Shown one piece after another: positions 6,767 through 60,837 of a stretch of DNA of 64,000 bases. The notes below the pieces were generated by a model, which had not been told where the DNA came from, searched no databases, and saw nothing but the letters and a program-made list of their open reading frames with translations. Where the stretch lies: assembly GCA_020721005.1 (NCBI GenBank), contig DYNP01000018.1, forward strand, positions 1-64,000. Reading direction: 5' to 3'. The number at the start of each line of letters is the position of its first letter. The first letter of the stretch is position 1. Both the position numbers and the translations under genes were made by a program. The stretch is from Thiomargarita sp. Lineage in GTDB: Bacteria > Pseudomonadota > Gammaproteobacteria > Beggiatoales > Beggiatoaceae.

Positions 6767-7081
6767 TAGATTTCTTGCAAAAGTAAATGATGCGATATTG
6801 TGCAGCATAAAAGATAAGATATAAAAAAATAAAATTGCTAAAAATCTAATGGTAGGGTGGGCAACCGCTTTATTGTTATATACCCCAATTAGGGAAATCC
6901 CTGTTGGAGTGGAGGCTTTAGCCGGCCGGCCCTTGCAATTTGTGTATGTGGGGTAATGCCGACCGCCGGCCGGCTAAAGCCTCCACTCCAATGTATCTTC
7001 TAGAGCCTCCACTCCAATGTATCTTCTAGAACCTCCACTCTAACAGGGACTTCTCTTTTATTTTTTCGTATCTCATCTTTA
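6767..7081. repeat. Composite palindromic repeat R1 (copy A)
   Basis: Fills most of the 413-base gap before 7163. It starts with a TA-flanked outer arm (TAGATTTCTTGCAAAAGTAA) and contains an inner palindrome with arms GGAGTGGAGGCTTTAGCCGG (6906-6925) and its exact complement (6970-6989) around a core containing CAATTTGTGTATGTGGGG. Two degenerate extra arms follow (7004-7016, 7031-7042), then the AT-rich TTTTATTTTTTCGTATCTCA of the outer element. The right outer terminus appears to be lost. Confidence 0.85.
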
Positions 7082-7162
7082 AGGTGAGAAGTTTGTCAGT
7101 GGTTGTAAGTTTTTAGCATGGACAGTGGCAGCAGTTAAAAAAAGTTGCAATTGATCAAGGAG

Positions 7163-21876: not shown

Positions 21877-22307
21877 GTCTAGTCGGAGTGGAGACTTTAG
21901 CTGGACTGTCTAGTCGGAGTGGAGGCTTTAGCCGGAATGTCTAGTTGGAGTGGAGGCTTTAGCCGGTCAGCCGTAGGCCTCACCCCACACTGACAAATTG
22001 CAAGGCGCCTACCGCCGGCCGGCTGAAGCCTCCACTCCAAAAGCCTCTAGTCCAAAAGCTTCCACTCCTAAAATCTCCACTCCAACGTACTTTAACTGAT
22101 TGGAGTGGAGGCTTTAGCCGGTCAGCCGTAGGCCTCACCCCACACTGACAAATTGCAAAGCACCTACCGCCGGCCGGCTGAAGCCTCCACTCCAAAAGCC
22201 TCCAGTCCAAAAGCTTCCACTCCACCATACTTTAACCTATTAGCAGATAATGGTAGGGTGGGCAACTCTCATCTTTTCTTTATCCCATTCTTTTGCAAGA
22301 GGTCTAA
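21877..22307. repeat. Composite palindromic repeat R1 (copy B, internally duplicated)
   Basis: Two solo arms (from 21883 and 21909), then a full inner palindrome whose arms lie at 21944-21965 and 22018-22039, then a second nearly identical palindrome 157 bases on (22101-22122 and 22175-22196). The right end is the outer terminus TTTTGCAAGAGGTCTA (22292-22307). It occupies almost all of the gap between 21868 and the DamX-like gene. Confidence 0.85.
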
Positions 22308-31163: not shown

Positions 31164-31185
31164 AAAAAGAGAGGCTAGGGACAAT

Positions 31186-31766
31186 TAGACCTCTTGCAAA
31201 TGAGTAAAAGGGAAGTCTCCGCTAGAGTGGAGACTTTAACTGGAGTGGAGGCTTTAGCCGGAAAAGTACGCTGAAGTAAAAATTTTAGCTGGAGTGGAGG
31301 CTTTAGCCGGAAAAGTACGCTGAAGTAAAAACTTTAGCTGGAGTGGAGGCTTTAGCCGGAAAAGTACGCTGAAATGAAAACTTTAGCCGGAGTGGAGGCT
31401 TTAGCCGGAAAAGTACGCTGAAATGAAAACTTTAGCCGGAGTGGAGGCTTTAGCCGGTCAGCCGTAGGCATCCCCCCACATACACAAATTGCAAGGGCCA
31501 ACCGCTGGCCGGCTAAAGCCTCCACTCCAACTGCTGGGCGGCTAAAGCCTCCACTCCAACCGCTGGGCGGCTAAAGCCTCCACTCCAACCGCTGGGCGGC
31601 TAAAGCCTCCACTCCAACCGCTGGCCGGCTAAAGCCTCCACTCCAACCGCTAACCGGCTAAAGCCTCCACTTCAACCGCTGACCGGCTGAAGCCTCCACT
31701 CCAACGTATCTTAACCAATGGGTAACACTCATTTTTTCATGATCGCATACATTTGCAAGAGGTCTA
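31186..31766. repeat. Composite palindromic repeat R1 (copy C, longest, with tandem arrays)
   Basis: 581 bases bounded by a perfect 17-bp outer inverted repeat (TAGACCTCTTGCAAATG at 31186-31202; its complement at 31750-31766). Inside: five direct units of 49 bp (starts 31242, 31291, 31340, 31389, 31438), a single core with CACATACACAAATTGCAAGG, then seven units of 29 bp on the right (starts 31511, 31540, 31569, 31598, 31627, 31656, 31685). Left units carry GGAGTGGAGGCTTTAGCCGG and right units its complement. Confidence 0.92.
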
Positions 31767-31897
31767 TTGGAAAAGATTACGGCAAGAACTTCCGGTCCAC
31801 GGTCCAGCGTGGGAAAAGAATAATCAGGTAGGGTGCAGTAGATTAAGATCTAATGCACCTTTTTTTTACCTGCCACACAGAAAATAATAATTCCCAA

Positions 31898-44520: not shown

Positions 44521-44667
44521 TTGGAGTGGAGGCTTCAACCGGTCAGTGTTTGGAGTGGAGGCTTTAGCCGGTCTGCGGTTGGCCCTTGTAATTTGTGTAT
44601 GTGGGGTGATGCCTACGGCTGACCGGCTAAAGCCTCCACTCCAGCGTACATTCTAGAGCCTCCACTG
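44521..44667. repeat. Composite palindromic repeat R1 (copy D)
   Basis: Two left arms (44521 and 44550), core GTAATTTGTGTATGTGGGGT and right arm GACCGGCTAAAGCCTCCACT (44621-44640), then a degenerate arm. The outer TA-flanked arms are not evident, so this is an inner part only. Confidence 0.85.
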
Positions 44668-46844: not shown

Positions 46845-47046
46845 TACGATAAAGATGAGATGCGAAAAAATAAAAGGGAAATCTCCGTTGGAGTGGAGGC
46901 TTTAGCCGGACAGCCATAGGTATCATCCTACATACACAAATTGCAAGGACCGACCGCTGTCCGGCTAAAGCCTCCACTCCAACGTATCTTAACTGAGGGA
47001 CAACTCTCATTCTTTTTCATGATCATATACTGTTGCAAGAGGTTTA
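46845..47046. repeat. Composite palindromic repeat R1 (copy E)
   Basis: Left AT-rich arm (ATACGATAAAGATGAGATGC), a single inner palindrome with CTACATACACAAATTGCAAG in the core, and right outer end GTTGCAAGAGGTTTA (47032-47046). The simplest, one-palindrome form of the element. Confidence 0.85.
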
Positions 47047-50657: not shown

Positions 50658-50968
50658 TAGATCTCTTGCGAGACTATGCGATCATGAAAAAATGAAAATT
50701 GCCCCTCAGTTAAGATACCTTGGAGTGGAGGCTTTAGCCGGTCAGCCGTAGGCATTCCTTCGTATACACAAATTGCAAAAGACTACCGCTGGCCGGCTAA
50801 AGCCTCCACTCCAGGGTATATTTTAGAGCTTCCACTTCGGCTAAAGCCTCCACTCCAGAGTATCTTCTAGGTCCTCCACTCCGGCTAAAGCCTCCACTCT
50901 AACGGAGACTTTCCTTTTATTTTTTCATATCTCATCCTTATCGCATCATTTACTTTTGCAAGAAGTTA
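50658..50968. repeat. Composite palindromic repeat R1 (copy F)
   Basis: Left outer arm TAGATCTCTTGCGAGACTAT at 50658, inner palindrome from 50720, core CGTATACACAAATTGCAAAA, right arm CCGGCTAAAGCCTCCACTCC and two extra degenerate right arms (50841, 50884), then the AT-rich segment and outer end TTTTGCAAGAAGTTA at 50968. The final TA supplies the stop codon of mobB. Confidence 0.88.
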
Positions 50969-51514
50969 ATCATGTACTTTTTGGAATTCGGTGGATGAGA
51001 GTGCGAAAGTTTGTTGGATAAAGGTAACGATTTCCGGAGGATTGTTGAGATCGAGTTGGGGCAATTCTACGTTGTCCATGGGCTGATCAGTGGCAACCGC
51101 AATAATAGTAGGATCTTGTGGATAGAGTAAGGGATGATGTAAATTAGGACGATGAATCTCTATTTTGGGGTAGTTTTCTCGTTTGAATCCTTCCACTAAT
51201 ATTAAGTCAGGTTGAGTGTATAATAGGGAGGGGAGTATTTGTTGGAGGGAAACTTCCTGTTTTTCCGAGATTTCTACAGTACAGGCCCAACGACGTGGAG
51301 AGACAATAAAAGTTGAATCAGCTCCTGATTGACGTAATAAATACGAATCTTTGCCAGGTTGGTCCAGGTCAATGGGATGATGAGTATGCTTGATGACGGC
51401 TAGTCGCAATCCTTGTTGTTTGAAAAGGGGAATGAGTTTGGTCAACAAAGTAGTTTTGCCTGTGCCGCTGTAGGCAATAAAACCCAGAATAGGGGGAGCA
51501 TTTTGGGGAATCAT
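50966..51514 (-). CDS. mobB: Molybdopterin-guanine dinucleotide biosynthesis protein MobB
   Basis: GTP-binding accessory protein of molybdenum cofactor guanylylation. 182 residues with the P-loop AYSGTGKTTLLTKL (about 13-26), HTHHPIDLDQPGKDSYLLR and the LILVEGFK motif. Its start overlaps the mobA stop by four bases, so translation is coupled. Its stop codon (50966-50968) lies in the terminal TA of repeat R1 copy F, so the last residues (VHD) may have been altered by that insertion. Confidence 0.92.
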   Translation of the reverse strand: MIPQNAPPILGFIAYSGTGKTTLLTKLIPLFKQQGLRLAVIKHTHHPIDLDQPGKDSYLLRQSGADSTFIVSPRRWACTVEISEKQEVSLQQILPSLLYTQPDLILVEGFKRENYPKIEIHRPNLHHPLLYPQDPTIIAVATDQPMDNVELPQLDLNNPPEIVTFIQQTFALSSTEFQKVHD

Positions 51515-55189: not shown

Positions 55190-56059
55190 TAAGGTCGTTT
55201 AAGGGAATGATGCGGTGGAATGGAGAGATGGGAAGGTGAGTTTGAATTTGAAAATGAAATGGGAATGTGGAAATAGGGAACCTGATGAGAGTTGCCCACT
55301 CTACCATTCAGTTAAGGTACGTTGGAGTAGAAGCTTTAGCCGGTCAGCCGTAGGCATCACCCCACACACACAAATTGCAAGGGTCTACTGCTGGCCGGCT
55401 AAAGCCTCCACTCCAGTTGCTGGCCAGCTAAAGCCTCCACTCCAATTGCTGGCCGGCTAAAGCCTCTACTCCAATTGCTGACCGGCTAAAGCCTCTACTC
55501 CTACGGGGTGGTTCCTTTCTGAATAGCATGGCTGGAATTGGGGGGCAACGATAAGGCGATTGCCCACCATTAGATTTTTAGCAATTTTATTTTTTCGTAT
55601 CTCATCTTTAGTTTTGCAAGTGGTCTAATTATAAAAAACTGGGGGTTAACCGGGGGAACTGATTCCAGTTTGTTCTTAGCAGATTTAGCAGGGAATTTAC
55701 TCTTAGCATGTTATCTTGGTTTTGACAATTAGTTTTTTAGGAGAGAAAAGCAAGAAGGAAATCTGTGTTTTTTGTTTGAGATTGTTGGATGGGGAGCGAA
55801 TGGTAAATAGTGAATAGTGAACAGTAGAGAGTGAAAATAATTGGGATCAATTCGTTGACTTTGTTGTTCATGGGTTGATGGCTGGCTTTCTTCCCTCGTG
55901 AATACAATGCATTTTGAATGAAGGCAGTTTAGTTTTTTTATGAGATTGCCCATTGACAAAAGCCTTACCATATAGTTTAAAATAATCATGAAAGGAATTT
56001 GAATAGTTTTTATTGTGAACATGTCAATTGATGTCAATATGCTTAAATGAGGAGTGCTT
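55190..56059. other. Repeat-containing gap downstream of lptE
   Basis: Composite repeat R1 copy G occupies most of 55205-55627. A GTGAATAGTGAA-type repeat is at 55802-55832. The AT-rich stretch 55925-56059 must hold the promoter of the histone-like gene. A long minus-strand frame (55729-56796) is a by-product of Lys/Ala-rich coding on the other strand. Confidence 0.6.
55308..55627. repeat. Composite palindromic repeat R1 (copy G)
   Basis: Left arm TTGGAGTAGAAGCTTTAGCC at 55322, core CCACACACACAAATTGCAAG and four successive right arms (about 29-31 bp spacing, each like CTGGCCGGCTAAAGCCTCCA). Then the AT-rich segment TTTTATTTTTTCGTATCTCA and outer end TTTTGCAAGTGGTCTA (55612-55627). The segment 55553-55600 (CCCACCATTAGATTTTTAGC) is the complement of 6826-6862 in copy A. 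Confidence 0.85.
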
Positions 56060-60548: not shown

Positions 60549-60609
60549 AGACGCGATTAATCGCGTCTCTACCTTGGGTTAATCGCGTCTCTATGTTAGA
60601 TTAATCGCA
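60545..60609. repeat. Palindromic repeat R7 (copy 1)
   Basis: A perfect 28-base palindrome (60545-60572; half GTAGAGACGCGATT) followed by GGGTTAATCGCGTCTCTATG. Recurs at 60785-60837. Confidence 0.85.
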
Positions 60610-60612
60610 TCT

Positions 60613-60712
60613 CCTGGAGTGGAGGCTTTAGCCGGCCAGCAGTAGGCTCTTGCAATTTGTGTGTGTGGGGTGATGCTTACGGCTGACCGGCTAAAGCCTC
60701 TACTCCAACGTA
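60613..60712. repeat. Composite palindromic repeat R1 (copy H, inner part)
   Basis: Single inner palindrome with left arm TGGAGTGGAGGCTTTAGCCG, core CAATTTGTGTGTGTGGGGTG and right arm GACCGGCTAAAGCCTCTACT. Nested between two R7 palindromes. Confidence 0.85.
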
Positions 60713-60733
60713 TATGTTAGATTAATCGCGTCT

Positions 60734-60784
60734 GGCAGAAACAAGTGCGAAAGCGTCTTAATCAGATTGACCAAAAATACCTAA
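60734..60784. repeat. Copy of the sulfotransferase 3' end
   Basis: GGCAGAAACAAGTGCGAAAG... matches 60493-60544 with about six differences, and both are followed by an R7 palindrome. The sequence between the two was inserted or the segment was duplicated with R7. Confidence 0.85.
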
Positions 60785-60837
60785 GTAGAGACGCGATTAA
60801 TCGCGTCTCTACATTGGGTTAATCGCGTCTCTCCATT
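60785..60837. repeat. Palindromic repeat R7 (copy 2)
   Basis: The same perfect 28-base palindrome (60785-60812), then GGGTTAATCGCGTCTCTCCA, 20 bases before the ABM gene. Confidence 0.8.

Follow-up and report, generated by a model that had tools for sequence, protein, structure and literature searches.

The repeat at positions 31186-31766 of the window, the 64,000-nucleotide stretch of Thiomargarita sp. (host) DNA analyzed here, is probably a non-autonomous composite mobile element built of three nested layers, a REPIN within an IS4-type MITE within an IS5-type MITE, which spread in trans and later acquired arm arrays and inversions of its core. This copy is complete, with both outer ends exact (31186 and 31752) and a 3-bp ATT target duplication. 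Its arms form tandem arrays, of 49-bp units on the left versus 29-bp units on the right, about which the earlier note on this DNA was silent. Its features are the following:

31184-31186, no strand: left copy of the target duplication, ATT, read from the sequence
31187-31203, + strand: left terminal inverted repeat of the outer IS5-type MITE, AGACCTCTTGCAAA...
31242-31457, + strand: REP-like arms in an array with a 49-bp unit; five of the 20-bp arms are exact
31458-31508, + strand: 51-bp core between the innermost arms
31509-31702, - strand: seven REP-like arms in a second, inverted array with a 29-bp unit
31703-31751, - strand: B-type shell half including a degenerate IS4-type end, TATCTTAAC...
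31752-31765, - strand: right terminal inverted repeat of the outer MITE
31766-31768, no strand: right copy of the target duplication, ATT, read from the sequence

The arm, GGAGTGGAGGCTTTAGCCGG (20 bp), is present at all eight loci for which a shared inner palindrome had been claimed, and has 36 matches in the window at ≤3 mismatches where shuffled sequences yield 0. Degenerate or one-sided outer ends occur at 6767, 22292, 47032, 50658, 50955, and 55613, and none was found when looked for at loci 44521 and 60613. The other copies in the window, none of which is assigned a strand, are:

6767-7086: decayed copy that has a left end, two arms (6906 and 6970) plus degenerate ones, and an A-type shell remnant on the right
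21885-22306: copy with two tandem palindromes, its sole outer end being the right (B-type) one
44523-44642: inner palindrome with no recognizable shell
46845-47046: copy with A-type and B-type halves and a minimal 91-bp palindrome at 46890-46980
50658-50969: copy degenerate at both ends, palindrome at 50722-50812
55299-55627: intermediate copy, its palindrome having IS4-type end remnants on either side, enclosed by the A-type outer end at 55613-55627 and an incomplete B-type half
60616-60706: 91-bp palindrome with no shell, within a GATTAATCGCGTC-type repeat

Repeats of another palindromic family, GATTAATCGCGTCTC, surround the shell-less 60616 palindrome (window 60550-60830). In the older shells (window 55299-55627; G000 C104:49321 and C96:182403 elsewhere in the host), a second REP-like palindrome of GTAGGGTGGGCAAC type adjoins the IS4-type end and is similar to the GTAG-headed REPs of other bacteria.

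Across the whole 4.05-Mb host assembly the arm occurs 1029 times at ≤1 mismatch, with 0 matches for a reversed-pattern control, and the same tolerance gives 200 matches for the outer end TAGACCTCTTGCAAA and again none for its control, so that further copies do carry the defined outer ends expected of the MITE described in the earlier note. Detailed statistics were obtained from 1.255 Mb of the host genome, window included, and thus cover ∼31% of it; motif thresholds were chosen by the analyst, and each lineage is represented by one MAG. Of the 75 arm clusters in this sample, 36 have two outer ends, 17 have a single one, and 22 lack them; extrapolation to the genome gives an estimate of ∼240 copies. 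The elements make up 1.6% of the sample. As expected of MITEs, full elements are numerous, mostly 203-786 bp long, and contain no transposase gene; solitary arms are also present in the host. A 224-bp consensus was unmatched in plasmid and phage collections.

The outer ends of the element are AGACCTCTTGCAAAAGT. TA is found at 82 of 91 outer ends versus 5% expected, confirming the presence of TA at both tips noted earlier, although its reading as a TA duplication does not hold. When the end is taken as AGACC, 17 of the 30 pairs have exact 3-bp repeats, against a mean of 7.25 and at most 14 in 2000 shuffles, and the same 30 pairs show no excess of 2-bp or 4-bp flanking repeats. Moreover, the base preceding the left TA is identical to the base following the right TA in 24 of the 30 pairs, which disfavors duplication of TA alone because that model does not predict identity outside the TA. 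The best reading is a 3-bp ANT target duplication, in which the TA of each tip combines one base of the element with one of the target. The IS5-family group having a 3-bp ANT duplication is presumably ISL2. An insertion sequence on a public contig (L199:6564-7479) shares the outer ends of the element, is flanked by a 3-bp duplication (ATA), and has HTH_Tnp_4 and DDE_Tnp_4 domains split over two ORFs, for which the NCBIfam assignment is IS5. By its shared ends and short duplication, the outer layer is an IS5-family MITE. In genomes of the host's family (L190, L191), the same outer end precedes what reads as an IS5-type C-terminal coding sequence. The IS427 group has 2-bp duplications and two ORFs (PMC3281130).

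The earlier note had instead derived the shell from a Tc1/mariner-IS630 MITE with TA duplication. The frequency of TA at the tips and two weak DDE_3 (IS630-type) fragments in the host would agree with such an origin, but the 3-bp ANT repeat fits best, the insertion sequence with the same ends belongs to the IS5 family, and the search for an IS630-type transposase with matching ends returned two DDE_3 loci that lack such ends. This origin is accordingly rejected as highly improbable.

Profile searches of the host assembly found no DDE_Tnp_4 (IS5-type) transposase and, in seeking an autonomous parent, no PF13359 match and only fragments matching PF13358. The sole PF01609 match in the host, on C95, was discarded as a candidate parent, its ends being unrelated. 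That the matching insertion sequence is seen only on other contigs, with its ORF split, and that the IS5-type gene is missing from the host are points against the explanation preferred here, as are the failure to find an empty site of the outer element and, described below, the distance of the host RAYT from the arms, the sister genome's lack of a high-scoring RAYT of this subfamily, the weak hairpin of a lone arm, and the small, loosely defined orientation count in the sister. Joined flanks of the outer element, blasted against the 1.255-Mb sample, identified no clean empty site, and a second species of the host genus was not found among the 58 relatives searched. Short, arm-free MITE-like elements with AGACCTCTTGCAAAAG-type ends were observed at G000 C117:154449 (73 bp) and C104:25314 and on a viral contig (L198:5522-5886), suggesting that one transposase family may serve several MITE families. 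At G000 C96:137813, two outer ends are nearly fused (TAGACCTCTTGCAACAAGAGGTCTA), possibly an internal deletion derivative.

The inner unit of 91 bp consists of two inverted REP-like arms, spaced 71 bp apart, around the 51-bp core. As single-stranded DNA this unit folds as a near-perfect hairpin (folding z −8 to −11), whereas a lone arm gives only a weak hairpin. An inverted REP doublet, a hairpin, and many intergenic copies are the characters of a REPIN, and the unit works like one. The RAYT search proposed in the earlier note, which overlooked the link of the arms to RAYTs, recovered one intact host gene of a fitting subfamily (C67:44625-45161; 275 bits to the subfamily profile, and 108 bits to NCBIfam REP_Tyr_transpos versus a cut-off of 80). 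No arms were found near this gene, and for want of a linked cognate RAYT the unit falls outside formal REPIN membership in the host. RAYT genes of Chloroflexi, in contrast, are flanked by arm-like repeats, namely GGAGTCGAGGCTTTAGCCGG (L210), GGAGTGGAGGCTTCAGCCGG in arrays that contain one exact arm (L213), and GGAGGGGAGGCTTTAGCCGA (L221); in the host's family, most RAYTs of this subfamily have other GGAGT-headed palindromes at their flanks. Among Chloroflexi MAGs, a different phylum, the same or a nearly identical 20-bp arm was observed in L036, L049, L051, L067, L089, L095, and L101; in that phylum it is associated with RAYT genes. The sister-genus genome S06.Bin195 contains 728 arms, yet a profile search detected no high-scoring member of this RAYT subfamily there, which fits spread of the arms as MITE cargo.

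The arrangement of the shell bears on which part of the element is mobile. Two-ended copies combine an A-type half (AGACCTCTTGCAAAAGTAAATGATGCGATAAAGATGAGATACGAAAAAATAAAAGGGAAATCCCCGTTGG) with a B-type half (AGACCTCTTGCAAAAGTATGCGATCATGAAAAAATGAGAGTTGCCCCTCAGTTAAGATACGTTGG): A is paired with B in 32 of the 33 copies in which both halves are readable, indicating that the package moves as one asymmetric unit; the same pairing rules out two independent repeats merely lying side by side. Were the inner REPIN alone mobile by means of the host RAYT, with the outer ends as relics or as frequently hit neighbors, then the 22 of 75 clusters lacking outer ends, the solitary arms, the intact host RAYT of the right subfamily, and the 60616 copy, a possible shell-less insertion located within another repeat and having neither shell nor obvious duplication, would find a ready explanation. 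The regular pairing of the halves, however, is not what that model leads one to expect, nor are 3-bp duplications that border the outer ends, the lack of any shell half without arms nearby in a search of the host sample, or a host RAYT unlinked to arms, and we regard the model as unlikely. The outer shell probably spread the whole package.

Between shell and palindrome lies a further layer. The nesting and the REPIN-like inner part described in the earlier note are borne out, but its two levels are too few, since an IS4-family middle layer was missed. Remnants of IS4-family ends (CATTAAGTTAAGG) are kept in some host copies. In S06.Bin195 the same inner palindrome occurs within ∼146-bp elements with ends CAATGCCATTAAGTTAAGG, of which 15 of 18 distinct insertions have 11-12-bp duplications (≤3 mismatches). 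In 13 of these 18 insertions, a sample biased by choosing loci for their containing the arm, a REP hairpin (AGGCTTTAGCCG or its complement) is present at both flanks, versus a background of 0.17%. Most of the REPs hit are of a related GGACTAGAGG type, and an insertion found through its end alone (L270) has the same REP target; uninterrupted REPs elsewhere in S06.Bin195 are effectively the empty site. A full insertion sequence with the same IS4-type ends and a 10-bp duplication (L259:383-1952) contains two ORF pieces that match the IS4-family NCBIfam model. The sister elements thus share their ends with an IS4-family insertion sequence and have duplications in the 10-12-bp range, and the IS4-type MITE is the functional shell in the sister genus, generating ∼12-bp duplications mostly inside REPs. 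The IS4-type end has exact matches in 29 of 58 relatives of the host. In two relatives, L269 and L270, 125-bp IS4-type MITEs were observed that have a GTAGGGTGGATT palindrome in place of the GGAG arms; the one in L270 has a 12-bp duplication and lies within a GGAG-type REP hairpin.

In the host, remnants of the IS4-type end lie within IS5-type shells, for example at C104:49321, C96:182403, and window 55299-55627, and the host and sister consensus sequences align through CTCCA(A/C)CGTA(T/C)CTTAACT. These intermediates suggest that an IS4-type MITE already carrying the REPIN became the inside of an IS5-type MITE, so that the IS4 layer would have come first and the IS5 layer outside it.

The arm arrays differ from locus to locus. 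Their dominant units in the host sample are 26, 36, 43, 29, 18, and 44 bp, and the left and right sides expand independently, as slippage would produce; the cause of the tandem arms was not recognized in the earlier note. The occurrence of inner cores in both orientations, which it did record, is borne out and, relative to the shell, is an inversion. With respect to the A-to-B direction, the 51-bp core is oriented 18:15 in the host and 13:0 in the sister (Fisher p=0.004), the latter count comprising 13 elements classifiable under loose motif rules. The simplest mechanism would be recombination or template switching between the inverted arms.

The palindromes might instead be kept because they serve the host between genes, for example by terminating transcription or stabilizing mRNA, with copy number reflecting selection and not transposition. 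The location of 74 of 76 elements in the host sample outside ORFs of ≥150 aa, the strong hairpin in single-stranded DNA, and a modest excess between convergent genes (19 of 73, versus 71 of 405 gaps >100 bp) are in keeping with this possibility. Nevertheless, an Rfam search of the window matched no family, transposon ends and target duplications account for the distribution, and array sizes vary among loci, leaving such a role of low probability as the explanation of copy number.

The composite-element explanation would proceed as follows. An innermost REPIN-like unit, belonging to the class found beside RAYT tyrosine transposase genes, would have sat within an IS4-type MITE, which was then enclosed in an IS5-type MITE with AGACCTCTTGCAAAAGT ends and 3-bp ANT duplications. 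Mobility in the lineage of the window would thereby have been taken over by the outer IS5-type ends, and an IS5-family transposase acting in trans, now missing from the assembly, would have spread the complete package over an estimated ∼240 sites, most of them intergenic. Once the copies were in place, arms may have grown into tandem arrays through slippage or unequal exchange, and the core may have inverted repeatedly via recombination or template switching between inverted arms; the RAYT may still act as well. Of this account, the layers with their ends and duplications, the A/B pairing, the inverted cores, the association of RAYTs with REPs in other genomes, and a RAYT gene in the host are observed. 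A further and more tentative idea is that the palindrome is self-targeting. The sister IS4-type MITE carries REPs of its own preferred target kind and so comes to lie among copies of what it carries; a single lineage would then have swapped its mobilizer from IS4 to IS5 with the cargo kept and the core freely inverting at many loci. We consider this possible, though doubtful as a whole.

Each layer of the composite element is of a known kind (MITE, REPIN, minisatellite-bearing MITE), and the element is best regarded as a variant of these; its shell replacement and core inversion are what is unusual. Like the REPIN/REP-RAYT system (PMC3116915, PMC2817692), the inner unit has inverted REP-like arms in a long hairpin, a GGAG-type head, an intergenic location, hundreds of copies, the 71-bp spacing reported for the GI REPINs of P. 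fluorescens (PMC3116915), and cognate-type RAYTs flanked by the same arms, here in Chloroflexi; unlike that system, the doublet is cargo of DDE-type MITEs, its arms have multiplied in tandem, and the RAYT of the host is not linked to them. BrickBuilt of Porphyromonas gingivalis, an IS5-ended MITE with a minisatellite of 23-bp units in 19 copies (PMC4596501), resembles the element in being an intergenic IS5-type MITE with GAGACCTTTGCA-like ends and an internal minisatellite of variable copy number, but it has no inverted REPIN; the present element has an inverting core flanked by arrays of opposite orientation, plus a second layer of IS4 type. The IS4-family element ISRm22 was located in REPs in 10 of 10 cases (PMC1525189); the sister-genus element is likewise IS4-type and inserts into REPs, but it is a MITE that itself carries REPs of its target kind. 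Candidatus Thiomargarita nelsonii, for which MITEs are reported in hupL and in a dsrA intron, also combines a high MITE load with palindromic repeats in a large sulfur bacterium, although those MITEs have other ends and the arm core is absent from the main text of that report (PMC4853749). In the literature searched, neither the arm nor the IS4-type end was described as belonging to this repeat, and no account was found of such stacking, of sister genera differing in shell through a change, or of an inverting core.

REPs and REPINs are usually viewed as clients of RAYTs. Here they are the cargo of two unrelated DDE transposon families in turn, the same cargo having different shells in sister genera, and if this is general, some REP families would spread without a RAYT. 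In the near 1:1 core inversion over dozens of loci, nature has kept a record of how ∼30-bp palindromes undergo recombination or template switching.
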